Of a DNA stretch of 64,000 bases, positions 9,202 to 41,863 are shown piece by piece. The translations under genes and the position numbers were made by a program. The notes under the pieces were generated by a model. It was given only the letters and a program-made list of their open reading frames with translations. It was not told where the DNA came from and did not search any database. The first letter of the stretch is position 1. Each line of letters starts with the position of its first letter. This stretch comes from Streptomyces sp. NA04227 (lineage in GTDB: Bacteria > Actinomycetota > Actinomycetes > Streptomycetales > Streptomycetaceae): the NCBI RefSeq assembly GCF_013364195.1, contig NZ_CP054918.1:5197001-5261000 (forward strand). Reading direction: 5' to 3'.

Positions 9202-10134
9202 TCAGGGGTTGGGCACCTTCAGCAGGTCCCAACTCACCTTCCCCGGAACGCCGTCGGCGTCCTTGCCCTTGAAACCGAGCTTGTGCTGCCAGGCCTGGTA
9301 CGACTTGCGGTCGGCGTCCGTCCAGTCGTCGCTGGGGCCGTGTTCGTAGCGGCCGCAGCCCTCGGCGTTGAGGCGGTGGCCCATCATGGTGATCAGCGGA
9401 TGGCTGCGGCCCGCCCGGAAGAAGTCCTTGCCCGGGTAGGGCGCGTACTTGGGCCGGGGCCGCGGGCCCGGACCCGGTTCCCCGCCCTGGCCGGGCCGCT
9501 CCTTCGGCGGCTCGGTCGAGGTGTCGCCGTCGCCGCCCGCACCCTCCTGGCCCGCGAGACGGGCCTTGATCCGCCCGCGCATGCCGTCCATGGTGAACCC
9601 GCGCGGGTCCACCTTGCCGGGCTGCCACTCCTTGTGGCCGATGACGGAGCGTTCCGTCCAGCCGTGGGCGCGGCAGAGCGCGGCGGAGACCTTCTCGATG
9701 GCCTCCAACTGGGCTTTGGGCCAAGGGTCCTTGCCGTCGCCGAGGTTGATCGCCTCGAAGCCGTAGAAGCGGCTGTTGCCGTCGACGGTCGCCTGGTTGT
9801 CGGCGGGCAGTCTGCGCTCGTCGACGACGGCGGCGAGGACGTCGGGGTCGCCCGAGCCCGCGTGGTTGGCCCGGCCGTGGCCCACCATGAAGATCTCGCC
9901 CTTCTTGGTGATGACCCCGTGGCACAGCGGCCCGGGCAGGCCGGCGTGGCCGTCGTAGCAGAGGTCGACCTGGTTCTCGCTGCCCGCGGTGTGGTGGATC
10001 ATCACCCCGTGCACCGGTCCCCAGGCGCCCTTCGCGTTCCGGTTGTGGCGGCGCCAGTTGCGCACCTCGTGCACCTTCAGGCCCTCGTCCCTGAGGATCT
10101 GCAGGATCTTCGAAGCGCTCAGCGGTTCAGCCAT
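9202..10134 (-). CDS. peptidoglycan amidase with C-terminal wall-binding domain
   Basis: A 310-aa lysin-like enzyme. Residues ~40-180 form an Amidase_2 (PGRP/T7 lysozyme-like) domain with zinc ligands in IHHTAG (47-48), His167 in IGHKEW and Asp176 in KVDP; it should cleave the amide between N-acetylmuramic acid and L-alanine. A proline/glycine linker (~205-232) joins it to a C-terminal wall-binding domain (YPGKDFF ... GPSDDWTDADRKSYQAWQ) of the type found in actinophage endolysins. There is no signal peptide, so export would need another route, cell lysis, or loading onto the CIS. Its start overlaps the DUF6519 stop by 8 bases, placing it as the last gene of the CIS transcript. The domain call is firm; the biological role is inferred. 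Confidence 0.88.
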   Translation of the reverse strand: MAEPLSASKILQILRDEGLKVHEVRNWRRHNRNAKGAWGPVHGVMIHHTAGSENQVDLCYDGHAGLPGPLCHGVITKKGEIFMVGHGRANHAGSGDPDVLAAVVDERRLPADNQATVDGNSRFYGFEAINLGDGKDPWPKAQLEAIEKVSAALCRAHGWTERSVIGHKEWQPGKVDPRGFTMDGMRGRIKARLAGQEGAGGDGDTSTEPPKERPGQGGEPGPGPRPRPKYAPYPGKDFFRAGRSHPLITMMGHRLNAEGCGRYEHGPSDDWTDADRKSYQAWQHKLGFKGKDADGVPGKVSWDLLKVPNP

Positions 10135-21448: not shown

Positions 21449-21807
21449 CCCACTTCCACCCCTCGTCGGTCGGGCGCCACCACGGGCGGGCCCTGCGGCA
21501 CAAGTCCTGCGGTGAAGCACTGCGCGGCACTCGTGTCGAGCAGCACCGGCACCCCGTCGATCCGCACCACGTCCTCGTCCGGCGTCCAGTGGACGCTGGT
21601 GCACGGGGACGGGACCCCGCGCACGGTGTGGGGGCAGCCGACGACCGTATGGGCGGGCCCGGCGGTCGAGACGGGCACGCCGTCGAGCAGTACGGCATCG
21701 GACCCCGGCACGGAGACGGCGCTCGCGCGCCCTCCGTGCGGGCAGCTGATCACGGCACCGGCGCCGACCAGATGGCCGGCGGCGCCCCTGCCGTTGGTCC
21801 GGGACAC
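21445..21807 (-). CDS. PAAR-like spike tip protein
   Basis: A 120-aa protein built of short PAAR-type units: GAVISCPHGG, LDGVPVSTAG, VVGCPHTVRG, IDGVPVLLD. The three-cysteine/histidine arrangement (CPHGG, GCPHT, SPC) could hold a metal at the tip. Such proteins cap the gpV/VgrG-like spike and sharpen it for membrane puncture. It lies directly between the spike and gp25 genes, the expected place. I cannot exclude that it belongs to a PAAR-like family rather than canonical PAAR, because the strict PAAR repeats are degenerate. Confidence 0.78.
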   Translation of the reverse strand: MSRTNGRGAAGHLVGAGAVISCPHGGRASAVSVPGSDAVLLDGVPVSTAGPAHTVVGCPHTVRGVPSPCTSVHWTPDEDVVRIDGVPVLLDTSAAQCFTAGLVPQGPPVVAPDRRGVEVG

Positions 21808-22410: not shown

Positions 22411-23550
22411 CTACGGCCTTACGCGGTCGCTCATCGCGATCAGGCCCTCGCGGGTCAGGGTGAAGTTCTGCTGGTACGAGCCCACGCGCAGGTTGTGCGT
22501 GACGCTCTTGACGTAGTAGTCGCCGTCGTAGGTGACGCCCGCCCCGCGGACGCCCACCAACTCCCGCGGCCTGAGCAGGTATCCGTGCCGGTTGACGTCG
22601 AGGGAGCCCGAACCGGAGATCGCGTCCGCCGAGGTCGCCGCACGGGCGAGCAGCTCGGCACTCGCCTGCTCGGTCTCCTTCTTCGCCGTACCCGGCAGAG
22701 TCTTGCGCTTGAGAGCCGGAGTTGCACGGCGGCCCAACGGAGGACGCAACGGCTCAATGTCCGGCTGAGGCAGCAGAGTTGAGACCCTGGTCCCCGGATC
22801 CTGTACGCGCGCCATCGGCTCCTCGCGCGCCGTCCCGTCGTAGGCGAAGGTGAGCTGGTCGACGGTCGAGTTGGCGTCCATGTTCACGTTCAGCGCGTGC
22901 TGGCGCAGCCCGACGCGCTTCTCGGGGCCCCAGTACGCGGTGGAGCGGTTGGGGGTCGGCCCCGGTTCGAGGTAGAAGGTGTAACCGTTCGCGCGCGCGA
23001 GGTCGTTGACGTACTCCAGATCCGTCCCGGTCTGGTACCCGACCCGCAGCCGTTCGCGCGGCGGCTGCTCGATCTGCTCCTGCACGATCATCGGCTGGAT
23101 GCCGTAGTCCGCGTACTTGGACAGAATCCGCTCAACTCGCTGCCAGGGCCGCAGGTTGGGGTAGCGGTCGGTGCGCTCCTCCAGGTCCATGAGCAGGGTG
23201 ACGTCCTCGCCGGTGATGGTAAGGGTGGTCTGGCCCGGCTGGTTACTGGCCCCGACCTCCTGCCGGACGATGAGACCGTCGAGCAGAACGGCGGGCGTGC
23301 CCTTGACGCTCACGGTGAGGACGACCCGCGTCTTCGGGTCGAAGTAGCCCTCGGGCAGCAGGCGTTTGATGATCGCGCCGCCCTTGGTGAGGTCGAAGGC
23401 GAGCTGAAAACCACTGCGTTCGCCGGCGGTGCTGGTGATCTGGGCGGAGAGCAGAGCCTCCATCAGCTCGGGCGGCGCCGGGCGTGCGAGCTTGGGGCCC
23501 AGGTAGAGGGCGGCGTGGATGGGGCCCTGGCCCACCGGTTCGTCAGCCAT
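22411..23550 (-). CDS. CIS hub protein (phage late control gene D-like)
   Basis: A 379-aa protein of the gpD/gp27 hub family. Typical features are FQLAFDLTKGG, DGLIVRQEV, LTITGEDVTLLMDLEER, the YQTGTDLEYVNDLARANGYTFYL domain split here as QTGTDLEYVNDLAR and ANGYTFYLEPG, and the C-terminal YLLRPRELVGVRGAGVTYDG plus YVKSVTHNL. I chose ATG 23550 (MADEPVGQ), which overlaps the LysM gene by 8 bases; a GTG at 23571 would add seven residues. A proline/arginine-rich insert around residues 265-300 is unusual and may be flexible. The hub joins the tube to the spike. Confidence 0.88.
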   Translation of the reverse strand: MADEPVGQGPIHAALYLGPKLARPAPPELMEALLSAQITSTAGERSGFQLAFDLTKGGAIIKRLLPEGYFDPKTRVVLTVSVKGTPAVLLDGLIVRQEVGASNQPGQTTLTITGEDVTLLMDLEERTDRYPNLRPWQRVERILSKYADYGIQPMIVQEQIEQPPRERLRVGYQTGTDLEYVNDLARANGYTFYLEPGPTPNRSTAYWGPEKRVGLRQHALNVNMDANSTVDQLTFAYDGTAREEPMARVQDPGTRVSTLLPQPDIEPLRPPLGRRATPALKRKTLPGTAKKETEQASAELLARAATSADAISGSGSLDVNRHGYLLRPRELVGVRGAGVTYDGDYYVKSVTHNLRVGSYQQNFTLTREGLIAMSDRVRP

Positions 23551-23941
23551 GCCGGAATCCGCTCCCGCCACCGGGGTTCATCGCGCCGGGGAAGCCACCG
23601 GGCAGGGGGATGTCGATCACCTGGCCCGGTTCGTCGGTCAGCTCCTGCGGGTCGAGAACCGGGTTGGCGTCGGCGATCTGCCACCACTGGCCGGGGTCAC
23701 CGAAGTAGCGCTGCGCGAGCAGGTCGGGACGCTCTCCGGCGTTGACCGTGTGGGGCGTCGTGTCCTCGTCCGGCGTGGCGTCGAGCGGGGGCAGTAACCG
23801 CCGCTTGGTGTACCGGACTTCACTGCCGTCCGCCTGCCGGTGCACCCCGATCTCGGCATCGTGGTAGCGGCTGGAGCGGGGGTAGGGGTGGGCGCCCGGT
23901 ATCGCGTCCAGCGCGTTCTCGTACGGCTCGATGGTGGCCAT
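23543..23941 (-). CDS. LysM / tail protein X-like baseplate protein with a TTA codon
   Basis: A 132-aa protein with a LysM-type core: TVNAGERPDLLAQRYFGDPG, QWWQIADANPVLDPQEL, GQVIDIPLPGG. In eCIS such a protein (Afp7/Pvc7-like module) sits at the hub and helps mount the tube. The N-terminal ~65 residues are polar, with YPRSSRYHDAE. Codon 49 is TTA (23797-23795 on the minus strand), the leucine codon read only by the bldA tRNA in Streptomyces; it is the only in-frame TTA I found among the genes of this window. Its stop overlaps the hub start by 8 bases. The TTA would make full CIS assembly depend on developmental timing. Confidence 0.85.
   Translation of the reverse strand: MATIEPYENALDAIPGAHPYPRSSRYHDAEIGVHRQADGSEVRYTKRRLLPPLDATPDEDTTPHTVNAGERPDLLAQRYFGDPGQWWQIADANPVLDPQELTDEPGQVIDIPLPGGFPGAMNPGGGSGFRHG
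23795..23797 (-). other. in-frame TTA (bldA-type) codon
   Basis: The plus-strand bases TAA at 23795-23797 read TTA on the coding strand as codon 49 of the LysM gene, between two CGG arginine codons and CTG. In Streptomyces, TTA is rare and is decoded by the bldA tRNA, whose active form rises late in growth, so the codon is a likely translational control point. Confidence 0.9.
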
Positions 23942-23953
23942 GGTGTCTCCTCC

Positions 23954-24658
23954 TCAGCGCCTTCCTGGTCCAGCTGCTGCTCCGGCGCCGATGTGGCCGG
24001 GGTTCAGGCCGAGGGCACCCAGACTTCCGGCGCGCGCGGCGCCCGCCAGCCGCTCCTTCTGCGCGAGGTGGGCGAGGTACAGCTCGGCGCCTCGGTGGCC
24101 CGCCGGGAGGTCGCTCACGGTGAGCACCTTCAGGCCGATGCTGAGGGTGGCCCGGATGGGGTTCAGGTTCACGTCGAACGCCGACTCGTTGATGCTGAGT
24201 TCGGTGATCCGGACCGGCATGACCCGCTTGCTGCCCCAGGTGAAGAGGGTCAACGGCATCTCGATCGGGCTGATCTCGATGGCACCCTTCTGAGCATTGC
24301 GGGTGGCCTCGCGCAGTTGGGCGACCGTGGGGTGCACCAGCATTTCGAGGACGGCGAGTTGGGGGTGGATGCCGTCCGGGGCCGCGATTTCGAGCTGGTC
24401 GGTGGCGTCGATCTCGGCGGTGAACTTCCAGGTCTCCTGGGCGGGGCCTTTCAGACGCAGGGCTTCGTTACGGTCGCCGTTCCCGGCACCGCCTCCGCCG
24501 GAGTCGCCGCTGCCGCCTGCGGATTGGGGGGTGAGGCTGCGTTCTAGGGTGTCCGGGTTGAATTGGAGGACGATGATGCGTTGGGGGGTGCCGCGTTCGG
24601 GGTCTATTAGGACTATGCCGGAGCGGATGGGTTTGGGGATGTTGGGGTAGCGGGTCAT
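23954..24658 (-). CDS. CIS tube-related protein (tube initiator type)
   Basis: A 234-aa protein resembling the N-terminal domain of CIS tube proteins: RIIVLQFNPDTLERSLTPQ at the start, LKGPAQETWKFTAEIDATDQ in the middle, HPQLAVLEMLVHP, then ITELSINESAFDVNLNPIRA. The FNPxxL and YNPxxA-like motifs are characteristic of eCIS proteins that start the tube on the hub, encoded just before the LysM protein. A glycine/serine-rich loop (~47-62) and a glycine-rich C-terminal tail are additions. Codons near the start (ATA, CTA) are unusually AT-rich for this chromosome, adjoining the low-GC block upstream. The hub-proximal placement, not the main tube, is inferred from gene order. Confidence 0.82.
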   Translation of the reverse strand: MTRYPNIPKPIRSGIVLIDPERGTPQRIIVLQFNPDTLERSLTPQSAGGSGDSGGGGAGNGDRNEALRLKGPAQETWKFTAEIDATDQLEIAAPDGIHPQLAVLEMLVHPTVAQLREATRNAQKGAIEISPIEMPLTLFTWGSKRVMPVRITELSINESAFDVNLNPIRATLSIGLKVLTVSDLPAGHRGAELYLAHLAQKERLAGAARAGSLGALGLNPGHIGAGAAAGPGRR

Positions 24659-24720: not shown

Positions 24721-25296
24721 CTATTGCTGTGCCAGCAATCCCCGAACGCCGTTTCGCACGTCCTCGTTTGGCTCGTTCTCGGCCATCCAGCGCAGCATTT
24801 CTTCCGCCTGAGGCCAGGTCAGATAGACAGTGGACCAAGCGGCAATGTTTCTGATCTGTGGATCCTGGTCACGGGAGGCTTCGCTAATCACTGCGAAGAT
24901 CTCCTCGTCGAATTCGGCGGAGGCAGCCAGGGTAAGTCGGACAATCCGCCTTGCCTTTTCAGTGCGAGCCTCTGTGCTTGTACCGGGGGCAAGGAGTTGC
25001 TCACGGGAGAAGGGTTCCAGGAAGAAGCTGACCCGCTTCGCGTAGTCGTCCACGGCTTCTTGGCCGGTCCCGAACACCACCGCACAGGAAACGTGCGTGA
25101 TGGTGTCCTCGATGTAGGTGACCCAGAGGTCGTGATTCACACCCCAGGTGATGACGGTCTTGTAATCGGCATCTGCGCGGCCTTCGTTGGTCTCGACGAC
25201 CTGCCACCCGCCGCGCTGCGCGATATTGGCGACCTTCTCAAGGCCGGGCAGCTCGCGCAGGACCATCCTGTGCTCCAGGTACTTGTCTACGGCCAT
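24721..25296 (-). CDS. unknown 191-aa protein, candidate partner or immunity protein
   Basis: I do not recognise this family. The protein has an N-terminal helix with VDKYLEHRMVLRELPGLEKV, a central beta-looking part with WGVNHDLWVTYIEDTITHVSCAVVF split as WGVNHDLWVTYIED and TITHVSCAVVF, then helices with ASAEFDEEIFAVISEASRDQ and a HEAT-like end (IRNIAAWSTVYLTWPQAEEMLRWMAE split as IRNIAAWSTVYL and WPQAEEMLRWMAE). It is acidic, soluble and without signal peptide. The DNA is clearly less GC-rich than the flanking genes (36 of 60 in 24781-24840) and its codons include ATA and GAT-type AT-ending choices. It starts 3 bases after the stop of the giant DUF4157 gene. A small acidic gene tied to the altered 3' end of a toxin-like giant is the usual layout of an immunity gene; a chaperone or adaptor is equally possible. 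Confidence 0.6.
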   Translation of the reverse strand: MAVDKYLEHRMVLRELPGLEKVANIAQRGGWQVVETNEGRADADYKTVITWGVNHDLWVTYIEDTITHVSCAVVFGTGQEAVDDYAKRVSFFLEPFSREQLLAPGTSTEARTEKARRIVRLTLAASAEFDEEIFAVISEASRDQDPQIRNIAAWSTVYLTWPQAEEMLRWMAENEPNEDVRNGVRGLLAQQ

Positions 25297-25299: not shown

Positions 25300-28200
25300 T
25301 CAGCGGCTCCTGAGGCGTGCTTCGAACGACGGGTCTGCGGGGATGTTGAGTATGTTCGTAAATTCTTTGTAGATCTTGACCAGGAAGTCGCCCTTCGCTT
25401 TGGAGGCCTGGTCCTTCGAATAGTCGAGCTTCATTGTGTCGGCCCACAACTTCATGTTGTCCGCGGTGCGCTGCAGAACCACCTCGGCCGCCGGTGAGGG
25501 AGTCATCTGTGCGGAGCTTCCCGTGGACATGCTCTCTCCGACGCTTTCCCAGAGTCTGGGGTTGTTGCGATTTAGGTTGGGGTTCACCTCAAGACCGTGT
25601 GCCTGCTGGATGATCTTTCCTGAGATGTCGAACTGTTTACTGAGGGCCTGAAGTTGACCCATCTGGTCGTTTGGCGCGGTCGGGGTTCTCGAAAGATAGC
25701 CAGTGCCGATGGAGGTGGAGGTGGAGAGGCCTTGTGAGGTGTCGAAGTAGGTCGGGGCACCCATGGCGCGCAGCGAAGCGAGCAGCCATTCCGTCTGCCG
25801 CCCGGCCTCCTGGGCTCCGGTGGTGTCGTCGCCGTAGTCGCCCTTCGTCCGCTTCGATCCTGGGCGGACCGGGCCGCCGGACAGCGGAGTCGTGCCGATG
25901 GTGTCGGCGATGTGTAGACCGCCCCGGTGTGACACGTCCACGGTTGCCAGGTTGGGAACCATAACGAACGGTGTGCGGAGGGGCTCGATCACGCCGAGCA
26001 GCGTGGCGGCGAGTGCCGCCCGGTTGAGGCTCTCATTGTCGAACTTCGTGCCGCCTTGCCACCCCGCGCGATTGCCCCCTGCAGCATCCAGGATCAGCCC
26101 GCCCATGGTCTGTCCGTCACGTCCCCCTGCTCGCAGGCTTCGTGCCTCCTGTCCGTACGTCGGGCCCCGCTTGTGCCCGGCCTTGGTGAGATAGGCGCCC
26201 GCGAAGTCATTTGTGCGCTCGACAGCCAAATGTGCGTCGACTTCGGAATCACCGGCCATGAGGTCCAGCGATTCCTTCTGATTCTTCTGCAGCGGATTGT
26301 CGAAAAGGCTCCTGGCGATGGCCGCCGTGCCGGTGTTCGGGTCGGCCTTGAGTCCCGGCTGCGCTCCGGACGGCTGCCCAGGGGGCGGTCGTACCCGGGC
26401 GGCCTGGCTCGTGATCGCACCCGAACGCAAGATGTGGGCGACCATGGCGTCGATGGCGTCCACGAGCTCCACCGTGTCCATCTTCAGGCCCTTTGCGACT
26501 TCGGCTGTCGGGTTCAGGCGGGCGATGATCCCAAAACTCTCGCCACCCTCGGCTTCGAGCGCGGACAGCCGGTACAGGGCCCGCATGCCGGTGAGAGCCG
26601 CCTTAAAGAGGGGGTGCTTGATGCCCTTCCTTAGCATCGCCTCGATCCGTGGGCGAATGCGTGCCACGATCTTCCGCAGTCGCTCATCCTTGGACTCCTT
26701 GGACTCCTCCTCCTTCTTGCGTTTGTCCTTCTCTTCCTGCTTCTCCTTCTTCCGGTCCTCCTTGGACTTCCCGTCCTTTCCGTGCTTGTCCTTCTTCCCC
26801 TTGCTGTCTTTGTCCTTCTTGTGCTTGTCCTTCTTCTTGCCCTTGGGCTTGTTGTCCTTGCCGTCCTTGTCCTTGTCGCTGTCCTTCTTGCCGTCGCCCT
26901 TGCCGTCCTTGGACTCGTCCGTCTTGTCCTTCTTCGGATCGGTGGACGAGTCCTTGTCGTTCTTCTTGTCGTTGTCCTCCTTAGAGCTGTCCTTGCCGCT
27001 GTCCTTGTCCGGCTTCGGCTTGGTTTCCGTATCAGGCTTCGGCTTCGCGGGCGGGTCAGGTTTCGGCTTGGGTTTCGGCGTGGGCGTGGGACTCGTGTCC
27101 TTCTTGTCGTCGTCCTTGCCCTTGGAATCGGCGCCCTTGTCCTTACCGCCGGACCCCTTGGCGTCCTTGCCGCCCGGCCCAGTGTTGTTCTTAGAGCCGT
27201 CCTTACCCTTGCCCGGAGTCCCCTGCTGCCCCTTGTCGCCCTTACCGCCAGAGCCCTTGTCCTTGTCGCCCTGGCCCTTCTCGTCCTTGTCCTTGTCCTT
27301 GCCGGGCCCCGGCTGGTCCTTGTCCTTCTCTTTGTCCTTGTCCTTCGGGTCGTCCCCCTGCGCACCCTTGTCGCCGCCCGGCTTGTCGTCCTTGCCCTTG
27401 TCCTTGCCCATGTTGTCCGCCACGCCCTTGAGGCGGTTGCCGACCTTGGACACGTACTTGCCGATGCCGCTGAGCAAGGCCTGGTAGAGGACTTCGAGGA
27501 GGGCCACCACACCGGCCGCGACCGCCTTGGCGAAGAGCAGGCCCGCGCCGCCTTGGCGTACCGCCTTGAGCCAGGCGAGGACGGCTTGGAGTGAGGAGAG
27601 GATGGCGCTCAAAGCGCCCCAGGCCGTGCGGATGGCGTCGATGACGGCGATGGCCCAGCCCGCGCCGGGGATCAGCTTGGCGACGACCTTGGTCATCACC
27701 AGTTCGCCGATGATCAGGGGGAGTTGGGGGACTACGGCCTCCCATGCCTCCTTGACCATGTCGTCCAGCGACATGCCGCCCTTGACCAGCTTGTCGATGA
27801 TGGCCTTCGGGACGCCGAGGATCTCCTGGATCTTCTCCTTGAACCACTGCTTGACCGCGCTGGACACCTCGTTGAAGAGGTGGTTCTTGGCGCCGTCCTC
27901 GGCGGAGTTCTTGGCGCCGCTGAGCCAGCCGCCCGGGTCGGAGAGGAAGTCGGCGGCGATCAGCATCCACTCGCCGAGCGCGAGGAGCAGATTCTTCGCG
28001 AAGTCGACGATGGCCTTGATGCCGGAGACGACCGCGTCGACCACGGCGCTGAGCGCCTTGCCCAGGAAGTCGAGGGCCGCGGAGAGGGCCTTGCCGAGTG
28101 CGTCGAGGAGGTCCCCAACGGCCTCCATCAGCGCGGTGGCGAGCTTCTGGACGAAGTCGATGGCGGCCTTGACGACGCTGACGATGGCCTCGCCGATCTT

Positions 28201-31200
28201 CTTCGCGAGGTCCACGACGGCCTGTACGGCGCTCTTCACGAAGTCGACCACGGCGTCGACGAACTTCGTGACCTTGTCGGCGATCCACTTACGGGCGTCG
28301 TTGATCCACCCGCCGACCGCTTTGGCGAAGTCATTGATGAAGCCGGTCACCGCGGTGAAGGCCTTCTCGACCAGTTTGGTGATGGCGTCGACGAGGTCGT
28401 TGAAGAGGTCGACGATGAAGTCGAAGGCCTTCTTCCACAGGGGGGCGTCGTCCTTCTTCTTTTTCTCCTCTTGCTGCTTCTTCTTGGCCTCCTCCCTGGC
28501 CCTCTTCTTCTCGTCCCGGATCTTCCGGTCGCTCACATCCTTTTCTTTCGCCGTCTTCTCGTCGGTCTCGGCCTCCTTGTCCTTCACCTCCTGCCGGGCC
28601 TTCTTGTGCTTCTCGGACTTCTTGTCGCCGAGCTTCTTCACCTCGGCGTCCTGTTCGGCCCGCCACTGCTCGCGCTGACCGGTGACGTCGGCCATCGCCT
28701 TCTGGCGTTCACCGGACTGCTGGTCGGAGTTGGTGGCGATCTCCTTGTCGACCTGCTGCTTGTGCTTGCTCTGGGTGTCCCGGAACTCGCCGTCCTTCTT
28801 CTCCTTGGCGCCGCCCATGTCCTTCTGGCCCTGGGCGAACGCCTGTTGGAGCTCGGGCCCCTTCTCGTGCTCGGCCACCTCCGAGGCGGCCTCCACCGGG
28901 ACGGCCCCGGTGTTCACGGACGTCTTGGCGCCCCCGCCCTTGCCGCCCCGCGGACCCGGGACCTTGGACTCCATCACCGTCTTCGGGACGTCCGGGAAGA
29001 TCTGGTCCTCGCCCATGCCGCGGGCGGCGTCCTGGCGACCGGTGGCGAGGGTCTCCCGGGTCTTGGCGTCGACCGCCTCGTTCTGCGCCTTGGCGGTCTC
29101 GTCGGCCGCGTCCTGCATCTCCACGCCGGGCGCGGTGCCGGCCTCTGCCTGGGCGATGGACGGGTCCTCGGTTTCGACGGCGTCGAGGTCCTTGCCGTCA
29201 CTGTTCTTGCCCGGGTCGAAGTCCTTGTCGGGCAGCTTGGCGCCCTCGACCTTCGCCTCCTCGGCCTTCGGCGCCTCGGACTTCTGTACCGCGTCCTGGT
29301 TGTACTGGGCGGGTGCGTCGGTCCGCGGCGCGCCCTGCAGGGTCTGCGGGGAGCCGGCGGGGCGCGTCATCGAGGGTGGGGCCGCCGACAGTTGCTTGTG
29401 CTCGTCGCCAACCGTGCGGTCCACGGAGGCGGAGATGCCGCCCATGGCCTCCATGGCGCGGTGCGGCTTCAGCTTGGCGGCCTGGCTGAGGCCCGCCTCG
29501 GGGGCGACCTGCGAGAGGTTGGGTGCGGCGGCGGAGTCCTTCTTCGCCTTCGCGGGCGCACCCTTGGCGCCGCCCCCGCCGCCACGCTTCGGGGCCGCAC
29601 CCTTCCCGGCAGGCTTCCCGCCGGGTTTCGGAGCGGACTTGGCCGCCTTGGGTGCCGGTGCCTCGGCCTTCGGCGCCGAGGAGTTGGCGTTCGAGACGCG
29701 TCCTGCGGTCTTCTTCCCGGGCTCCGGGGCCGACTTGGGGCTCCCGGAGGCCGCGGAGTCCGGCTTGGACGAGCTCTTCTCCGTCTGCGTGGACCCTCCG
29801 GACGTGGATCCGGACGAACCGGAGGAGGCGCCCGAGGAACCGTCCGAGGAGGAACTGCCCGACCCCGACCCGTCGCTGTTGCCGGAGCCGGAGGACTGGC
29901 CCGGGACATCGGCGTTGGAGCCTCCCGTGACCTGGCTGTCCCGTCCTGCGGAGGGTGACTTGTCGTCGTCGGTGGCGCCGTTCTTCTCCTCGGGAGCGGT
30001 CTCCTCCTTCTTTCCCGCGTCCGTTCCCGAGTCCTTGGCGCCCTCCCCGTCCTTCTTCTCCTCCGCCGAACTCGCTTTGCCCTCGGCCGACTTGGAGCCG
30101 CCCGCCTTCTGCGACTCTCCTTCGCCCTTGGCGCCCTCCTTGTCCTTCCCGGCGCCCTTGCCCTCCTTGGCCGCCTCCTCGCTCGCGGCCTCGGCCTCCT
30201 TCTTGCCCTTGGCCTCCTGCTCGGCGGCGCGTGCCGCGGCGGGTTCGGCCTTCTCGTCCTCGCCGGTCTTCGGCGGGGCACCGGCGAGACCGGAGCCGGG
30301 CTTGGGGCCGGAGGCTCTGTCGACGGCGTTCAGGCCGAGTCCGGCCTCGGGGCTGCCCTCGGTCTCCAGCGAGGCGTCGGGGAGCGCGGGCCCCTGCGAC
30401 TCCTCCTCCGCTTCGGGCTCGGCCTCCTCCTCGGCGTCTTCCGCGTCCCGCTCGGCCTGGACCTTCTCCGCCTTGGTCGGCGGGGGAGCGGGGAACGAGG
30501 GCATGGCGGGCTCGGCGCCCCCGGCGGCCGGGTCGAGCTTGTCGGCGGTCGGCACGCCGGAAACGTCGAGGTCCTTCTCCGGGACGAAGTCCTCCGGCTG
30601 CAGCTTGGTGTCCCAGGCGCTCTTCTCCCCGCCGCCGACCTCCACCTCGGAGTCGCCGCCCTGCGCGGGGCCCGGCTCCTTCTCCTCCGGGTCGAGGTCC
30701 TGGGAACGCTGCCCGTCGAGGAGACTCCGCTTCGCGGCGTCGAGGTCCGGCTTTCCGGAGAACGACGGCGAGCCCGTCGGCTTGTCGTCGGCGGCCTTCT
30801 TGTCCTCGGCCGGGAGCTTCTGGCTCTCGACCAGGGCCTCCGCGACGCCGGGACGGTTCTTCGCCGCCGACTCCTCCTCGCTCGCGGCCGGAGCCTCCTC
30901 CTGCTCCCCGCCGCCGGCGTCCTCCTCCTTGCCGCCGCCCCCGTCCTTCTCGTCTCCCTTGTCCCCGTCCTTGCCCTCGGCGTCCTTCTTCTCCTCGGCG
31001 GCGCCCCCGGACTTCTCGTCCGCTGCCGCGCCGTCCTTCCCCCCGCCCTGCTGGTCCTTCCCGGCGGAGGCGGAGTCCCCGCCGTCCTGCTCGGACTCCC
31101 CTGAACCGGCACCGGAACCGGCCTCGGTCCCAGGTCCCTCGGTCCCGGGCCCCTCCGGAGCCTGGCCGCCCTCCTGCTGACCGGGGTTGGGCGCGTGGTT

Positions 31201-32283
31201 GCCGCCGCCCGGCTCCTCGGTCTCCTCACGCCCGCTCTCGGGCGGACGCTGCTGGTCCTGGCCGGGCACGGGAGCCGGCTCCCGGCCCTCCACCGGACGA
31301 GGCTTCGCCGACCCCGGTGCCTCTTCCGTGCGTTCCTTGCCCTCCGGGGCGGGAGCCTCGGCCGGGCGCTCGTCGCGTGCTTGCTCCTTCTCCCCGTCTC
31401 GTTGCTCGTTCTCCCGGTCGCGGAGGATCTCCTCCGCCGCGTCGGGCTCCACGAACGGCGCGCCCAGGGGGCTCTGTTCGGGGCCGTCGCCGTCGTAGAA
31501 CTCCTCGGCGTCCGCCCCGTCGACCAGTTCGATCAGCCGGTCCAGTTCGGTGCTGAGCAGCCGGTTCTCCAGCCGCTCGTACACCTGGTCCTGCAACTCC
31601 TCGGAGAGTGCGCCGAGTTGCAGCCGGGCGCGCTTGGACCGGTCCTCCGGGTCACCGTGCAGCGAGCGCACCACCGCGTTGGCCAGCCGGTCCACCAAGG
31701 TCGCCGGGTCCAGCTGTTCGAGGCGGTTGCGGTCGGCGTCCACGTGTGTGTAGCGCAGCCAGCCGGGAGTCGCCTGGCCCGCCTCGACCTCCGGCGCCGC
31801 CGTGGCCGACGACTCAGCGGACGTCAACTCCTGGGCGGCCGTCTCCGCCTCCCGCTCAATGGCCTCCTGCGGCAGCGATACGGCGCCCGGCTCACGCCCG
31901 GCCTGGAGCGCGCCCGAGCCGTGCGGGTTCTGGATCGTGTGCAACAGCTCGTGGGCGAGGAGGCGTTGGCCCTCCTGGGTGCCCGGCTGGAAGGTCCCCT
32001 CGCGGAAGAAGATGTTCTGCCCGACGGCGAGGGCGTCCGCGCCCATCAGATCCGCGAGTCGACCGGCGTCACGGTCGGTGTGCAGGCGCACTCGGCTGAG
32101 GTCGTGGCCGAGCTGCTCCTCCAACTCCCGTCGTACGCCCGGGTCCAGAGGCTGTCCGGCGCCGCTGACGATGTTCTTCGGTTCGAGCGCGCCGTTCTTC
32201 GCGCCGCGTTCCTTGCGCTTGCGGCGGCGTTCGGCCGCTGCCGCCTCGGCTCCCTGGGACTGGTTCTGCGCGGCGGTGGTCAT
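25300..32283 (-). CDS. giant DUF4157 (eCIS core) protein, possible tape measure or cargo carrier
   Basis: A 2,327-aa protein. Residues ~35-120 are the DUF4157/eCIS-core domain with the zinc-peptidase-like motif HELLH (111-115) after GADALAVGQNIFF. Residues ~280-1,080 are disordered, rich in Glu, Lys, Pro and Gly. About 1,110-1,280 form a charged coiled coil. Roughly 1,284-1,618 are long amphipathic helices with an ~11-residue rhythm (VDLFNDLVDAITKLVEKAF, VDAVVDFVKSAVQAVVDLA), ending in a more hydrophobic stretch. About 1,620-1,865 are a Lys/Asp/Gly/Pro linker. The last ~440 residues are globular-looking, unrecognised, and encoded by much less GC-rich DNA. Position beside the ATPase and terminator genes is where eCIS tape-measure proteins lie, so a tape measure carrying a C-terminal effector is possible. 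The ATG overlaps the upstream stop by 4 bases. Confidence 0.85.
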   Translation of the reverse strand: MTTAAQNQSQGAEAAAAERRRKRKERGAKNGALEPKNIVSGAGQPLDPGVRRELEEQLGHDLSRVRLHTDRDAGRLADLMGADALAVGQNIFFREGTFQPGTQEGQRLLAHELLHTIQNPHGSGALQAGREPGAVSLPQEAIEREAETAAQELTSAESSATAAPEVEAGQATPGWLRYTHVDADRNRLEQLDPATLVDRLANAVVRSLHGDPEDRSKRARLQLGALSEELQDQVYERLENRLLSTELDRLIELVDGADAEEFYDGDGPEQSPLGAPFVEPDAAEEILRDRENEQRDGEKEQARDERPAEAPAPEGKERTEEAPGSAKPRPVEGREPAPVPGQDQQRPPESGREETEEPGGGNHAPNPGQQEGGQAPEGPGTEGPGTEAGSGAGSGESEQDGGDSASAGKDQQGGGKDGAAADEKSGGAAEEKKDAEGKDGDKGDEKDGGGGKEEDAGGGEQEEAPAASEEESAAKNRPGVAEALVESQKLPAEDKKAADDKPTGSPSFSGKPDLDAAKRSLLDGQRSQDLDPEEKEPGPAQGGDSEVEVGGGEKSAWDTKLQPEDFVPEKDLDVSGVPTADKLDPAAGGAEPAMPSFPAPPPTKAEKVQAERDAEDAEEEAEPEAEEESQGPALPDASLETEGSPEAGLGLNAVDRASGPKPGSGLAGAPPKTGEDEKAEPAAARAAEQEAKGKKEAEAASEEAAKEGKGAGKDKEGAKGEGESQKAGGSKSAEGKASSAEEKKDGEGAKDSGTDAGKKEETAPEEKNGATDDDKSPSAGRDSQVTGGSNADVPGQSSGSGNSDGSGSGSSSSDGSSGASSGSSGSTSGGSTQTEKSSSKPDSAASGSPKSAPEPGKKTAGRVSNANSSAPKAEAPAPKAAKSAPKPGGKPAGKGAAPKRGGGGGAKGAPAKAKKDSAAAPNLSQVAPEAGLSQAAKLKPHRAMEAMGGISASVDRTVGDEHKQLSAAPPSMTRPAGSPQTLQGAPRTDAPAQYNQDAVQKSEAPKAEEAKVEGAKLPDKDFDPGKNSDGKDLDAVETEDPSIAQAEAGTAPGVEMQDAADETAKAQNEAVDAKTRETLATGRQDAARGMGEDQIFPDVPKTVMESKVPGPRGGKGGGAKTSVNTGAVPVEAASEVAEHEKGPELQQAFAQGQKDMGGAKEKKDGEFRDTQSKHKQQVDKEIATNSDQQSGERQKAMADVTGQREQWRAEQDAEVKKLGDKKSEKHKKARQEVKDKEAETDEKTAKEKDVSDRKIRDEKKRAREEAKKKQQEEKKKKDDAPLWKKAFDFIVDLFNDLVDAITKLVEKAFTAVTGFINDFAKAVGGWINDARKWIADKVTKFVDAVVDFVKSAVQAVVDLAKKIGEAIVSVVKAAIDFVQKLATALMEAVGDLLDALGKALSAALDFLGKALSAVVDAVVSGIKAIVDFAKNLLLALGEWMLIAADFLSDPGGWLSGAKNSAEDGAKNHLFNEVSSAVKQWFKEKIQEILGVPKAIIDKLVKGGMSLDDMVKEAWEAVVPQLPLIIGELVMTKVVAKLIPGAGWAIAVIDAIRTAWGALSAILSSLQAVLAWLKAVRQGGAGLLFAKAVAAGVVALLEVLYQALLSGIGKYVSKVGNRLKGVADNMGKDKGKDDKPGGDKGAQGDDPKDKDKEKDKDQPGPGKDKDKDEKGQGDKDKGSGGKGDKGQQGTPGKGKDGSKNNTGPGGKDAKGSGGKDKGADSKGKDDDKKDTSPTPTPKPKPKPDPPAKPKPDTETKPKPDKDSGKDSSKEDNDKKNDKDSSTDPKKDKTDESKDGKGDGKKDSDKDKDGKDNKPKGKKKDKHKKDKDSKGKKDKHGKDGKSKEDRKKEKQEEKDKRKKEEESKESKDERLRKIVARIRPRIEAMLRKGIKHPLFKAALTGMRALYRLSALEAEGGESFGIIARLNPTAEVAKGLKMDTVELVDAIDAMVAHILRSGAITSQAARVRPPPGQPSGAQPGLKADPNTGTAAIARSLFDNPLQKNQKESLDLMAGDSEVDAHLAVERTNDFAGAYLTKAGHKRGPTYGQEARSLRAGGRDGQTMGGLILDAAGGNRAGWQGGTKFDNESLNRAALAATLLGVIEPLRTPFVMVPNLATVDVSHRGGLHIADTIGTTPLSGGPVRPGSKRTKGDYGDDTTGAQEAGRQTEWLLASLRAMGAPTYFDTSQGLSTSTSIGTGYLSRTPTAPNDQMGQLQALSKQFDISGKIIQQAHGLEVNPNLNRNNPRLWESVGESMSTGSSAQMTPSPAAEVVLQRTADNMKLWADTMKLDYSKDQASKAKGDFLVKIYKEFTNILNIPADPSFEARLRSR

Positions 32284-32615
32284 CGGGCTTCACCTCGCCC
32301 CGCACGTCCACCCGGTTCCGCCGAGAGTCCTTCGTGTACCGCCCGCGCCAACTCCTGCCCGAGCCGTCGCGAGGTCAGGTTCGCGGGCAGTGGCGGCAGC
32401 CCGGACAGCGCGTCCAGCGCACGGTCCGTGGCGGCCAGCGGCACCCCCCGCTCCCGTACGAGACGGGTCAACTCGGTCTGGAAAGCGGCCGATACACGGT
32501 CGCCGTCCACCCCGTGACCGAAGCCGTCGAGGACCAGTTCGCCGATGTCGATACGGACGGTGTCGGCAGGGACGGTGGTGGCAGGGGCGGGGTTCCTGTG
32601 CTCGGTCAGACCCAT
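32280..32615 (-). CDS. small conserved-looking CIS protein
   Basis: A 111-aa soluble protein lying between the ATPase and the DUF4157 giant. Residues 19-32 (TVRIDIGELVLDGF) form a short strand-like motif; helices follow (VSAAFQTELTRLVRERGVPL, RRLGQELARAVHEGL). I recall small proteins with an I-x-IxELVLDGF pattern next to eCIS ATPase genes, with no known function. The ATG at 32615 overlaps the ATPase stop by 10 bases and the TGA overlaps the next start by 4, so it is coupled to both. The strand motif resembles one in the 263-aa protein encoded upstream. A chaperone or adaptor for the giant protein is a guess from position. Confidence 0.75.
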   Translation of the reverse strand: MGLTEHRNPAPATTVPADTVRIDIGELVLDGFGHGVDGDRVSAAFQTELTRLVRERGVPLAATDRALDALSGLPPLPANLTSRRLGQELARAVHEGLSAEPGGRAGRGEAR

Positions 32616-34792
32616 CCGCGGACCTCCGACGGCGTCAGGGAGCGTTCCAGCTTCAGGTACTCGGTCTTGGCGGCGGCGAGCATGTGCCGCATCTGGAGGC
32701 GGTCGCCCTCCTCGGCGGCGAGGAAGGCGCCGGAGAGGGCGATATTGCGGATCGAGCCGCCCGCGACGGTGAGTTGGGCAAGGAGCGCGGTGTCGATGTC
32801 CTTCACGGGGGCCTGTGGCGGGAGCACCCGGCGCCAGATCTCGGCGCGTTCGGGCTCGGCCGGGAAGGGGAAGTCGACGACGAAACGGATCCGGCGCATG
32901 AAGGCGGTGTCGAGGGCCTTCTTCATGTTGGTGGTCAGGATGGCCAGACCCCGGTACGCCTCCATGCGCATCAGGAGGTAGCTGACCTCCAGGTTGGCGT
33001 ACCGGTCGTGGCTGTCCTTGACCTCGCTGCGCTTGCCGAACAGGGCGTCCGCCTCGTCGAACAGGAGCAGCGCGCCGCCCCGTTCGGCCGCGTCGAAGAC
33101 CTTGCGCAGGTTCTTCTCGGTCTCGCCGATGTACTTCGAGACCACCTGGGAGAGGTCGATGATGAAGAGGTCGAGGCCGAGTTCCTTCGCCATGACCTCT
33201 GCGGCCAGAGTCTTTCCGGTACCCGAGCCGCCCGCGAACAGCGCGGTGACACCGAGGCCCCGGCGCAGCGTCCCGGCAAATCCCCACTCCTGGTGGACGG
33301 TTGCCCGCTGCCGTACGTGTGCGGTGATCTCCCGGAGTACGCGGACCTGCCGGTCGGCGAGCACCAAGTCGCCCCAGCCCGCGCTCGGTTCGATACGGCG
33401 CCCCAGGTCGTCCATGCCGAGCCGGGCCTCCGTCAGGCCCGCGTGCCAGGCGAGTTGGGCGGGGCTTTGGTCCTCGGCCTGCGGCAGATCGCGGCGTACG
33501 GAGGCGGCGGCCGAGCGGATCACGTGCGGGGCGAGCTGGAACTGGGCGACCAGGCCCCGGAGTTGGTGCTCGTCCAGGTCCGGTATGCCGCTGAACGCGC
33601 CTGCCCACAGATCGAGTTGTTCCTCGTCGTCCAGACGCGGGACGCTCACGCGCTCGCCGCGCGGGCGGTCCGTCTGGCGCGGGTCGTCGCCCGCCACCAC
33701 CAGCGGCACCCCCGCCCCCGACGCGAAGGACTCCGTCGCCGCCCGCTGGTCGCGGTCGAGTTCGCCGATCTCCAGGAGGAGGGCGGACGGCAGCAGTACC
33801 GCCTCGCGCTGCCAGAGACGGGCGAGACGGTCGCGGTCCGCCGGGTCGGTGGGTACGTCGTCCGCCGTCATCGAGTACAGGCCGAGCCCGGAACGGGCCG
33901 CCGCCGCGGCCGCGATGTCCGCCCGGGTGCGCAGGTCGCCGCCGACCAACTCCACCATCAGCGGCGCGTCCGGCCGCGAGCCCGCCGCCCAGCCCGAGGC
34001 CACCCGGGTCGCCGCCAGGTCGTAGGAGGCGGGGAGTTGGTCCGGTACGGGGCAGCGGCGCAGCATGCCGTGCAGGCGGGCGTCCAGGTACGGCGAGCCG
34101 AGCAGGAAGTGCAGGATGCGCTCGTCCAGGCGGAGGCGGGAGGCGGTCAGACGGCTCTCGTCGTCCAACTCGACCAGGCGCCAACGGCGTAGCGGAGCCA
34201 CCGGTGTCAGCGCGCTCCAGTGCGGCTCGGCGAGAGCGGCCAGGGCGAGCGAGAACGTCGGATACGCACGCTCCGGATCACCACTCGCCGCCGCGCACCG
34301 CGCACCCGTCGTCGGGTCCAACTCCGCCGCCGCCGTGAGGAGTACGACCTGCTGCTCGAACTCGCTGAGGCCGAAGCAGGCTGTGAGTGTCGCGAGGGTG
34401 GAGAGGGGCGGGAGGGAGGCGAGAGGGGAGGACGAGGACCCGGGGTCGGGAACGACGGCCGGGGCGACGGGAGTTGAGGCCTTCTGCCGGTGCTTCGGGT
34501 TGTTCTTCGGGGTGGCCGAGACATCTTGCTCGTGTCCCTGCTCTCCCTGCTGCTTCTGCTGTTCCTCGTGTCCTACGTGCGCCGCTGACGTGCCGGACGC
34601 GCCGGAGGTGCCGGACGTCCCGCGCCCCGCCCGCGACGCATGGCCGTCGACGAGCGCGAGGACCTGCTGTATCGCGGCGGTGAGGGCGAGAGTGTCGTCG
34701 GGCGCCGTGCCGGAACCCGCACCGGGCCCGGTCCCCGTACCGTTGCCGAATCCCCGCGCCGCCATGTCCTCACCCGCCCCCTCTCGCCGCAT
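32606..34792 (-). CDS. CIS-associated AAA+ ATPase
   Basis: A 728-aa protein. The C-terminal ~260 residues are an AAA+ module: Walker A GGSGTGKT near residue 517, Walker B LLLFDEADALFG, sensor LAILTTNMKKALD and arginine residues in FMRRIRFVVDFPFP. The N-terminal half is a winged or helical region (LSEFEQQVVLLTAAAELDPT, RLRLDERILHFLLG) typical of eCIS ATPases (Afp15/Pvc15 type), which remodel or prime the particle, though the mechanism is unclear. The first ~130 residues are low-complexity. I chose ATG 34792, five bases after the upstream stop; ATG 34765 (MAARGFG) is an alternative. A zone rich in Gln, Glu and Gly (~75-100) adds to the disorder. Confidence 0.9.
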   Translation of the reverse strand: MRREGAGEDMAARGFGNGTGTGPGAGSGTAPDDTLALTAAIQQVLALVDGHASRAGRGTSGTSGASGTSAAHVGHEEQQKQQGEQGHEQDVSATPKNNPKHRQKASTPVAPAVVPDPGSSSSPLASLPPLSTLATLTACFGLSEFEQQVVLLTAAAELDPTTGARCAAASGDPERAYPTFSLALAALAEPHWSALTPVAPLRRWRLVELDDESRLTASRLRLDERILHFLLGSPYLDARLHGMLRRCPVPDQLPASYDLAATRVASGWAAGSRPDAPLMVELVGGDLRTRADIAAAAAARSGLGLYSMTADDVPTDPADRDRLARLWQREAVLLPSALLLEIGELDRDQRAATESFASGAGVPLVVAGDDPRQTDRPRGERVSVPRLDDEEQLDLWAGAFSGIPDLDEHQLRGLVAQFQLAPHVIRSAAASVRRDLPQAEDQSPAQLAWHAGLTEARLGMDDLGRRIEPSAGWGDLVLADRQVRVLREITAHVRQRATVHQEWGFAGTLRRGLGVTALFAGGSGTGKTLAAEVMAKELGLDLFIIDLSQVVSKYIGETEKNLRKVFDAAERGGALLLFDEADALFGKRSEVKDSHDRYANLEVSYLLMRMEAYRGLAILTTNMKKALDTAFMRRIRFVVDFPFPAEPERAEIWRRVLPPQAPVKDIDTALLAQLTVAGGSIRNIALSGAFLAAEEGDRLQMRHMLAAAKTEYLKLERSLTPSEVRGWV

Positions 34793-34796
34793 CGAC

Positions 34797-35963
34797 TCAG
34801 CTCTCCCGGCTCTGGCTGTCGCTCGGGCTGTCGCTCGGGCTGTCGCTCGGGCCGACACTCCGGCTCCGGCCGGTGCCCCGGTCCGTGCCCTCGTCCCCGG
34901 TCTTGCCGCCCTGGCCCGTCCCCTGGGACTTGCGTGCCGCCGCCTGCCGGGCGCGCTTGGCCGCCGCCGTCTTCGTCGCGGCCTTCACGGCGGAACGCGA
35001 AGTCGCCCTGGAAGCAGCGGACTTGGAGCTCGTCGACTTGGCGGCCGCGGACTTGGAAGCAGCAGATTTCGAGGAAGCCGAGGTGGAAGACGTCGCCTTG
35101 GAAGGCGTCGACTTGGAAGACGCAGCCTTGGCCCCGGCCGACTTCCTCGTCGCCGCCGCCGCCGTCGCCTTGGACGCGGACTTGGCGCCCGCCTCAGCCG
35201 CCTCCGCCCTCGGAGCGGCGGCACCCGAACCAGCGCCCGCACCCTGCTCCCCAGCCTGCGGACCCTCCCCAGCCTGCGGACCTTCCTCCGCCCCCGCCTC
35301 CTCCTCCCCGGGCAACGGATACTCCCCGATGACCGGCGGCACCGGAGCCCCCGGCGCCCCGAACGGCAGCACCCTGACCGTCCTGGTCTCCACGGGCTTC
35401 GCCGGGACCGGCTTCTCGCGGCCGTCGATGAGGACGAGGGTGCCGGTGTAGGTGACGGAGAGGGTGTACGGGGTCTGGTGGAGCATGCCCCAGAGCTTGG
35501 AGGTCTCGTCGACGTCCATGACCTCGGGCGTGAAGCGCACCCGCTGCGCGGCCTCGGCGAGGTCGCTGCCCTCCAGGTACGGGCGTTCGGCGGCGGCCTC
35601 GATGACGTCCTGCGGGAGTACGGGTATCTCGTGCAGGGTGCGGATGACGGAGCCGATCAGGCGCTGGCCGACCAGTTCCGTCTCCTCGCCGTACGCGCTG
35701 ATCACGTAGTGCAGGTCGAGCGCGGCGGCCGGGCGCTTGAGGAGCGTGCCGTCGGAGGCGCGGGTGGCCAGGTCGTCGTTGCGCCGGGCGGTGTTGGGGG
35801 TGACGCGGTAGAGGAAGACGTTGATGGTCGGATCGGTCGGCGGCTCGGCGGGGGGTTTGCGGGTCTCCACCGAGACGGCCATGTCGATCTCGGGCCGCAG
35901 ATTGTTCTCGATCAGCAGGGCCAGGGCCTGGGTGACATGTGCGATGGCGAGTGCGTTGCTCAT
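34797..35963 (-). CDS. DUF4255 tail terminator with histone H1-like tail
   Basis: A 388-aa protein. Residues 1-~215 match DUF4255 (Pvc16/Afp16 type): MSNALAIAHVTQALALLIEN, PTINVFLYRVTPNTARRNDD, ALDLHYVISAYGEETELVGQ and KLWGMLHQTPYTLSVTYTGT. This domain caps the tube and sheath in eCIS. After a proline-rich hinge, residues ~232-388 are a long tail of Lys, Ala and Ser in units such as SKATSSTSASSKSAASKSAA, followed by KAATKTAAAKRARQAAARKS, like histone H1 tails, ending with DSPSDSPSDS repeats. Such a tail is not part of the usual ~200-aa terminator. It could bind nucleic acid or the cell wall polymer, or be a flexible filler. GGGAGC precedes the ATG; the same frame upstream is not convincing. 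Confidence 0.86.
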   Translation of the reverse strand: MSNALAIAHVTQALALLIENNLRPEIDMAVSVETRKPPAEPPTDPTINVFLYRVTPNTARRNDDLATRASDGTLLKRPAAALDLHYVISAYGEETELVGQRLIGSVIRTLHEIPVLPQDVIEAAAERPYLEGSDLAEAAQRVRFTPEVMDVDETSKLWGMLHQTPYTLSVTYTGTLVLIDGREKPVPAKPVETRTVRVLPFGAPGAPVPPVIGEYPLPGEEEAGAEEGPQAGEGPQAGEQGAGAGSGAAAPRAEAAEAGAKSASKATAAAATRKSAGAKAASSKSTPSKATSSTSASSKSAASKSAAAKSTSSKSAASRATSRSAVKAATKTAAAKRARQAAARKSQGTGQGGKTGDEGTDRGTGRSRSVGPSDSPSDSPSDSQSRES

Positions 35964-36112
35964 GAGGTTGCTCCCTCGGTCCCCGTCGTCGTCCGTGCGG
36001 TCGCACCGGCAGGCGCGGTGCTGCTTGCCGCGGTCGCCGTTGTCACCGCGGTGGTGCTGATGCGGGCCGCCGTCCGCGTACCCCAACTGCCGTTCGTCCT
36101 AGGCGTGTTCAC
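35960..36112 (-). CDS. possible 50-aa Thr/Ala-rich protein
   Basis: A short frame from GTG 36112 to TGA 35960. Its start overlaps the previous stop (GTGA) and its stop overlaps the DUF4255 start (ATGA), the same coupling as other junctions here. The product is Thr, Ala and Ser-rich with no motif (NSWGTRTAARISTTAVTTAT). About four fifths of third positions are G or C, which is only moderate support. It could equally be a spacer that the upstream gene crosses. Reported with low confidence. Confidence 0.35.
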   Translation of the reverse strand: MNTPRTNGSWGTRTAARISTTAVTTATAASSTAPAGATARTTTGTEGATS

Positions 36113-37714: not shown

Positions 37715-38239
37715 TCAGGCCGGGTTGAGGAAGGAGGGCTCCTCGGGCTCGGGCACTTCGTAGTCGCGCTCCCAGCCCTCGCACTCCAGCTTGAGCGACT
37801 GGATGGCCACCGCGTTGGCGTTGGCGTCCAGTTCGCCGAGCACCTGGTACTCGCTCGGCCACACCCGGTACAGCTTGTGCGAGACGGCGACCTGCCCGGC
37901 CTCGTTGAGCACCTGGATCACGATGTCCTTGCGGAAGTCCGCGAGCGACACCTCGGAGCCGAGCCCCGCGCCGACCTGCCAGACCTTGTTGGCCCAGCGG
38001 TCGAACTCGGGGTCGTGGGTGACCCCGCGCTCCAGGGTTATCCCCTCGAACTCCGAGCGCCCCGGCGATTTGCGCGGCGAACTCGGGTCGCCGCCGTGCC
38101 GGTGCTTGACGACCTCGGTGGTCCGCTTCAGCGGGGAGATCTTGCTGATGCCCGCCACCGTGCGCCCGTCCCACAGAACCAGGAACTTGAAGTTCTTGTA
38201 CGGATCAAAACGATGGGCGTTGACGATGAATTCAGCCAT
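37715..38239 (-). CDS. CIS inner tube protein
   Basis: A 174-aa tube protein of the gp19/Hcp-like family. Typical parts are NAHRFDPYKNFKFLVLWDGR, VAGISKISPLKRTTEVVKHR, GGDPSSPRKSPGRSEFEGIT, LERGVTHDPEFDRWANKVW and the closing NAVAIQSLKLECEGWERDY. Hexamers of this protein stack into the channel that the sheath drives out. It lies 15 bases after the sheath stop, with AAGGGATACCG before the ATG. Only this one full tube gene is visible in the locus, which differs from the two or three tube paralogues of Afp/PVC-type systems. Confidence 0.93.
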   Translation of the reverse strand: MAEFIVNAHRFDPYKNFKFLVLWDGRTVAGISKISPLKRTTEVVKHRHGGDPSSPRKSPGRSEFEGITLERGVTHDPEFDRWANKVWQVGAGLGSEVSLADFRKDIVIQVLNEAGQVAVSHKLYRVWPSEYQVLGELDANANAVAIQSLKLECEGWERDYEVPEPEEPSFLNPA

Positions 38240-41843: not shown

Positions 41844-41863
41844 GGGACGAAGGACCAACCACC

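Follow-up and report, generated by a model that had tools for sequence, protein, structure and literature searches.

A Tme-like effector with an exchangeable C-terminal domain and a candidate immunity partner in a contractile injection system cluster of Streptomyces sp. NA04227

The effector gene and its domains

A window of 64,000 nucleotides (nt) of Streptomyces sp. NA04227 (contig NZ_CP054918.1) holds a cluster for a contractile injection system (CIS), in which a gene for a Tme-like effector of 2327 amino acids (aa) is followed, 3 nt behind its stop, by a small gene encoding a protein of 191 aa. This pair of genes is the subject of the present analysis. The following features were delimited in it, all coordinates being positions in the window.

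25300..32283, minus strand: Tme-like CIS effector gene, an open frame with an ATG start, 2327 aa
31921..32151, minus strand: DUF4157/eCIS_core domain, residues 45-121 (PF13699, E 1.7e-26), with HELLH at residues 111-115
27400..28437, minus strand: tape-measure-like amphipathic/hydrophobic helical block, about residues 1283-1628, marked by PHROGs matches, hydrophobic period and constant length
26704..27399, minus strand: Lys/Asp/Glu-rich linker, residues 1629-1860; by composition about 236 residues with K 32%, D+E 26% and R 1%
26485..26703, minus strand: conserved hook of 73 residues (1861-1933), present in 122 of 123 proteins, with a drop in coverage behind it
25303..26484, minus strand: swappable C-terminal domain of type 3 (residues 1934-2327), a probable toxin, possibly with the fold of a ribosome-inactivating protein (RIP)
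26155-26157, minus strand: Y2043, invariant in 37 of 37 alignment rows
25975..25986, minus strand: Glu-x-x-Arg motif (E2100 and R2103), invariant in 37 of 37 alignment rows
24721..25296, minus strand: candidate cognate immunity gene, 191 aa, between the effector and the tube initiator

The DUF4157 domain is the only Pfam domain of the effector. Judged by composition, the long middle of the protein is rich in Pro, Gly, Glu and Lys and passes into a charged stretch ahead of residue 1280. An initial annotation, made from the letters of this DNA and a list of its open frames, had given the position, strand and length of the effector frame, the HELLH motif and the Lys/Asp linker; all were recovered here, HELLH lying inside the PF13699 match. 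The disordered and coiled-coil regions that it described agree with the composition, from which alone they were judged, and the C-terminal end that it did not recognise comprises 394 residues without a Pfam family at E 10. The genes of an ATPase (32606-34858) and a Pvc16-type terminator (34797-36086) do adjoin the effector gene, as it had stated.

A constant carrier with a swappable C-terminus

Residues 1440-1620 of the effector are matched by 447 proteins at E <= 0.001, the window's protein included. The 123 proteins compared here are the best 120 of these matches together with matches to the C-terminal domain, again with the window's protein among them; since only the best were taken, this is a non-random sample. 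Along the window's protein, coverage by this set amounts to 108 proteins at residue 1620 and 92 at residue 1921, then falls to 30 at residue 1961, 16 at residue 2001 and 8-11 from residue 2041 onwards. Eight other proteins cover residues 1865-2327 to 99-100%.

The ends found behind the hook fall into 12 clusters (52, 22, 13, 11, 9, 4, 4, 3, 1, 1, 1 and 1 members), the window's type 3 being the cluster of 11. The largest, type 0, includes four proteins (P0083, P0088, P0110 and P0111) whose Endonuclea_NS_2 match is either listed or barely below the cut-off. P0010 is the nearest relative (96% identity over residues 1440-1620), yet it carries a type-2 end. A constant carrier thus bears variable C-terminal domains: the C-terminus is a swappable cassette, for which the hook offers a natural exchange point. 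Profile comparison merges types 1, 3, 5, 6 and 9 (42 of the 122 hook-bearing proteins) into one superfamily, chiefly through type 1.

When a near-identical carrier with a different end was sought at the DNA level, the best match had 85% identity; it lies in a genome (G065) whose locus (L091) has a nuclease-type end. The 45 plasmid records related to P0010 are all below 60% identical to it, and none reaches 80% query coverage. Among 7995 candidates scored, no stand-alone relative of the C-terminal domain was found at E <= 0.001.

The tape-measure-like block

The helical block is constant in length. In all of the 112 proteins (out of 123) where the DUF4157 domain, the block and the hook were found, its net length is 344 residues, the ends being extrapolated from local alignments, while the lengths of the linker, the C-terminus and the whole protein (2061 to 2372 aa) vary. 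A simple hydropathy scale gives values above 1.6 for the segments 1410-1429, 1533-1551 and 1578-1608. The rough 11-residue rhythm of the initial annotation was confirmed in residues 1284-1445, where hydrophobicity repeats every 3.66 residues (11/3) with a power of 47 that none of 2000 shuffles attains. No excess is seen at the 11-residue fundamental, whose power 564 of 2000 shuffles equal or exceed.

Tape-measure families of PHROGs match the block with E-values down to 5.5e-16. This match was rejected as proof of homology to tape measures because the reversed sequence (27364-28746) matches tape-measure PHROGs as well, to 1.1e-9, so that the profile evidence reflects mostly helix composition. 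Such a value for a reversed sequence calls for caution in similar claims of remote homology. The position in the cluster and the constant length of the block nevertheless favour a descent from tape measures.

A type-matched gene downstream of the effector

The downstream gene was compared over 82 loci: 33 loci, 57 from 295 genomes of the same genus (NA04227 included) and the window make 91, from which 9 duplicates were removed. The tube initiator is present at all 91. At nine of the same-genus loci, the first 250 residues of the C-terminal domain are identical to those of named Streptomyces loci, which fits the assignment to this genus. At each of the 82 loci, the stretch from the effector stop to the tube initiator holds a frame of 60 aa or more, which has little meaning alone as the gaps measure 400-1296 nt. 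These frames cluster into families of 32, 22, 8, 8, 7 and 2 members and three singles, and each C-terminal cluster corresponds to one downstream cluster. Type 0 is paired with family M1 (22 loci and L126, where the expected family lies at 1304-1993), type 2 with M3 (8 loci), type 4 with M2 (8 loci) and type 10 with M4 (7 loci); types 1, 3, 5, 6, 7 and 8 are paired with M0 (30 loci), and six loci have no type. The type-matched family is thus found behind the effector at 80 of the 82 loci (79 and L126), the remaining two having single-member families. The 49 loci drawn from the genome sample comprise 21 with M1, 16 with M0, 5 with M2, 2 each with M3 and M5 and 1 each with M6 and M7, the last locus being L126.

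The sequence similarities point in the same direction. That of the downstream gene follows that of the effector end (Spearman 0.62, a value reached by 0 of 1000 permutations) and is unrelated to the similarity of the tube initiator (0.015); between tube initiator and effector end there is hardly any relation either (0.05). Within the 32 loci of the M0 group alone, the coefficient between downstream gene and end is still 0.55; here the median similarity of the small genes is 0.152 for equal types, just slightly above the 0.122 for different types. Effector stop and downstream start overlap at 37 of the 81 loci for which the distance is known; they lie 0-20 nt apart at 19, 21-100 nt apart at 24 and further apart at one, distances that are approximate as the first permitted starts were used. 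The possibility that the downstream gene is a constant part of the tube or baseplate was ruled out because the tube initiator is 65-89% identical to the window's at the 81 other loci while the small gene splits into nine clusters.

The lengths of the partners differ with the type: the nuclease-type end has partners of 220-251 aa, type 2 those of 175-183 aa and the window's group those of 187-221 aa; others measure 257-278 aa or 405-414 aa, and the remaining ones are few. The partners of 405-414 aa belong to the type 10 loci (L044, L063-L067 and L070), and the single one of them that was scanned has no Pfam match above the cut-off. The partner of type 2 matches a SUKH-4 immunity family (E 4.4e-20). 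One relative of the window's partner matches HEAT_2 in its C-terminal half above the cut-off (E 1.8e-6); for the window's own protein of 191 aa, the HEAT_2 match (E 0.053) is at chance level.

Outside the genus, in other families of the order (L128, L129 and L131), the ATPase, the DUF4157 end, the block, the hook, a small gene and the tube initiator follow one another in the same order, the small gene being a distant relative with 22-28% identity. A further relative of the candidate immunity gene (23% identity) lies on a short contig of 8.7 kb of the same genus (L130), on which none of the 9 CIS query proteins was found nearby; this is perhaps an orphan immunity gene.

Since downstream families are matched to C-terminal types and one of them is a SUKH-4 immunity family, these pairs are read as toxin-immunity cassettes. 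It is highly probable that the effector C-terminus and the gene behind it form such a cassette, with putative toxicity on one side and putative neutralisation on the other.

Fold and candidate activity of the C-terminal domain

The C-terminal domain was modelled with AlphaFold2, a check that the initial annotation had proposed, and gave a confident fold (predicted local distance difference test, pLDDT, 83.0; predicted template modelling score, pTM, 0.86). The invariant Glu-x-x-Arg motif sits in a long helix of the model (model residues 150-170). A structural second look at solved folds placed RIPs in the top 31 rows and in 34 of the 42 listed entries, the best Z score being 5.5 for RIPs versus 3.5 for the first unrelated row. 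The active site of RIPs contains a Tyr and a Glu-x-x-Arg. The window's domain may resemble PF00161 proteins, by a weak overall fold match and, by motif alone, by its Tyr and Glu-x-x-Arg.

Several results weigh against this likeness. The Z score is weak, Foldseek returned nothing at E <= 0.001 from solved and viral structures, and PF00161 has no match in the strain's own genome at E 10. In the 37 aligned members, no Pfam family among the 25 shown of 28 matches more than one member or does better than 0.013, PF00161 is absent from these 25, and no credible solved relative was found by sequence. A Pfam search for RIPs across 199 genomes also gave nothing, though such a search does not show absence. 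Unlike RIPs proper, the domain has no sequence-profile match and is not filed as a member of PF00161. On the model, a RIP-like fold is nonetheless somewhat favoured. That the domain depurinates ribosomal RNA (rRNA) as a putative N-glycosidase is a step further, with a chance that falls slightly short of even.

Proposed function and alternative explanations

Taken as a whole, the evidence makes it likely that the gene product is a Tme-like cargo of a Streptomyces CIS, with a C-terminal toxin and an immunity protein encoded downstream. By analogy with published work on Tme, the DUF4157 end and the tape-measure-like block would be the constant, injector-facing part, which would dock on the baseplate, lie in the tube lumen and enter the membrane on firing. 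The exchangeable toxin domain would follow behind the hook, and the 191-aa protein would be its cognate immunity protein, exchanged together with it as a single cassette. This protein could shield the producer and its kin from putative cargo made in the cytoplasm or brought by sister particles; the apparent matching antidote gene behind the effector suggests that the producer itself or its relatives are within reach of the cargo. The toxin domain of the window's protein may have a RIP-like fold whose active site would include the Tyr and Glu-x-x-Arg, in which case the likeliest target would be the rRNA of the struck cell.

The initial annotation had proposed a single protein that may measure the tube and carry or be a cargo. 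The joining of a tape-measure-like part and a cargo in one protein is well supported, and Tme has the same layout (PMC11126660). That the effector is mainly a tape measure fixing tube length is possible but rather less probable: the gene adjoins those of the ATPase and terminator, the cluster genes scanned include no other recognised candidate for a tape measure, and the constant block with its period and PHROGs matches fits such a role, whereas the match of the reversed block to the same families and the variable total length of the effector do not. Furthermore, particles of S. coelicolor are uniform in length, and the paper on them notes a cluster without a tape-measure gene. The tme Q2006* mutant of S. 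davawensis, which lacks the C-terminal domain alone, still forms particles of about 200 nm, although it retains the block itself (PMC11126660). It is also rather unlikely that the effector acts inside the producer on development, its activity being tuned by the downstream gene. This has been proposed for Tme, whose endonuclease contributes to sporulation and to the release of DNA in S. davawensis (PMC11126660), and the S. coelicolor CIS is cytoplasmic (PMC10066040, PMC12237407); but many unrelated ends on one chassis, each with its own partner family, fit strain conflict better. A developmental role and a toxin-immunity pair are not mutually exclusive.

Adaptors of other injection systems adjoin and co-vary with their effectors, and the downstream gene could likewise encode an effector-specific adaptor or chaperone instead of an immunity protein. 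This appears improbable, as what the gene tracks is the C-terminal domain, the injector-facing parts of the effector being constant, and as one partner family is SUKH-4 immunity and another HEAT-like, Imm-HEAT being a listed immunity type. As regards the toxin itself, the domain might have another, as yet unnamed fold and share with RIPs a common arrangement only. The weak Z score and the negative searches given above make this a serious, if minority, possibility, set against the predominance of one family among the listed structures, the difference from the first unrelated row, and the invariant Tyr and Glu-x-x-Arg with the motif in a long helix.

Relation to known systems

Tme (BN159_7576 of S. 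davawensis) was published in 2024 as a Streptomyces CIS effector. It co-purifies both with the tagged tip protein and with baseplate proteins of the CIS, its authors regard it as ejected, and the CIS phenotypes require its C-terminal endonuclease (PMC11126660). Genes termed tme-like were defined there by relative length, an N-terminal DUF4157 domain and synteny. The window's gene has DUF4157 at residues 45-121, the greatest length in its cluster and a place upstream of the baseplate genes, synteny being compared with that published definition and the S. davawensis cluster being known from PMC11126660 only. Both proteins carry DUF4157 at the N-terminus, are disordered to about 70% and have coiled coils, a hydrophobic tape-measure-like block, a charged linker and a C-terminal effector domain, and both are encoded by the largest gene of their cluster. 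With this match in layout and neighbours, the suggestion of the initial annotation that such a tape-measure-related cargo was new for Streptomyces falls. The two differ in the linker, Arg-rich in Tme (32% R) versus Lys/Asp-rich here (1% R), and in the C-terminus, EndA-like in Tme versus an unrelated domain here; no EndA-like nuclease was found in the window's effector, residues 1934-2327 having no Pfam match and a C-terminal type other than that of the PF13930 proteins. What is new in comparison with the Tme literature is that the C-terminus is a swappable cassette with a type-matched downstream gene. The main text of PMC11126660 does not contain the word "immunity", and no description of the pairing was found among the papers listed by searches of open full text or in passages of PMC8213781, PMC11297309, PMC12691689 and PMC3482391, so that an earlier mention elsewhere is possible.

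The cargoes of the Sle1 type provide a second comparison. Sle1 and Sle2 of S. lividans and relatives are also tape-measure-like cargo with variable C-termini, and one such cargo, Micromonospora eburnea RS14790, is accompanied by a downstream immunity protein (RS14785; PMC13277306). In contrast to the window, DUF4157 belongs to a protein of its own (Sle2), and the genes of the pair lie upstream of the sheath rather than between ATPase and tube initiator.

Polymorphic toxins with PVC-metallopeptidase/DUF4157 domains likewise combine a constant N-terminal domain, long linkers and variable C-terminal toxins, and SUKH and HEAT immunity types are known among them (PMC3482391, PMC8213781). Toxin-immunity pairs adjoin some extracellular CIS (eCIS) loci (PMC8213781), so the principle was already known there. 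However, many DUF4157 toxins have no neighbouring immunity genes, as opposed to the type-matched family at nearly all loci here; these papers call this lack notable or mysterious, and one of them considers that it may imply action on distant organisms (PMC3482391, PMC8213781). A regular pairing in the core operon points instead to producers that protect themselves and compete with their close relatives, and it supplies a reason beyond low activity for the producer to tolerate an injector with toxic cargo. In its widest form, the proposal would be that Tme-class CISs are kin-discrimination weapons with co-exchanged toxin and immunity, and that one major toxin class (42 of the 122 hook-bearing proteins, or 32 of the 82 loci by partner family) is a new superfamily, divergent in sequence, of N-glycosidases that inactivate ribosomes and are held in check by HEAT-like immunity proteins. 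This combined proposal is put forward tentatively; it would add a candidate superfamily of ribosome-directed toxins with their antidotes.

The surrounding CIS cluster

On the minus strand, the cluster runs from sheath, tube, T4-baseplate-like protein, terminator and ATPase to the effector, the 191-aa gene and the tube initiator, then to hub, spike, tip, baseplate J proteins and, at the far end, an amidase with a peptidoglycan-binding domain. The CIS_tube, DUF4280, Baseplate_J and VgrG-related assignments are below curated cut-offs.

38255..40111, minus strand: sheath protein (PF17482, E 5.2e-12; PF04984, E 9e-12)
37715..38239, minus strand: tube protein, gp19 (PF06841, E 1.3e-39)
34797..36086, minus strand: tail terminator, Pvc16_N (PF14065, E 5.1e-44)
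32606..34858, minus strand: ATPase with winged-helix domain (WHD) and AAA domain (PF00004, E 5e-24; PF22977, E 1.1e-17)
23954..24658, minus strand: tube-initiator-like CIS_tube protein, the constant control flank (PF19266, E 4.4e-5, below the curated cut-off)
22411..23571, minus strand: VgrG-like hub, without Pfam match (NF033848, E 3.3e-4, far below the cut-off)
21827-22354, minus strand: spike OB protein (PF04717, E 3.8e-23)
21445-21807, minus strand: PAAR-like DUF4280 tip (PF14107, E 1.1e-4, below the cut-off)
9202..10134, minus strand: Amidase_2 with peptidoglycan-binding domain (PF01510, E 3.7e-22; NF038080, E 1.4e-31)

The effector is the longest recognised frame of the cluster, with 2327 aa versus 1297 aa and at most 1654 aa for the next longest ones. 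Four frames have no Pfam match at E 0.01 (36109-36906, 24721-25296, 22411-23571 and 11783-13999). The first of them, a gene of 265 aa between those of the terminator and the T4-baseplate-like protein, also lacks NCBIfam and PHROGs matches. No RNA family reached its gathering threshold in the window. The cluster is bordered by genes on the plus strand, an LD-carboxypeptidase gene (8115-9146) on one side and two succinyl-CoA-ligase-like genes (40665-42748) on the other. About 0.85 Mb away, the same genome holds a second CIS cluster (C1:6087356-6091186), with a sheath match and an adjoining DUF4157 frame of 527 aa.
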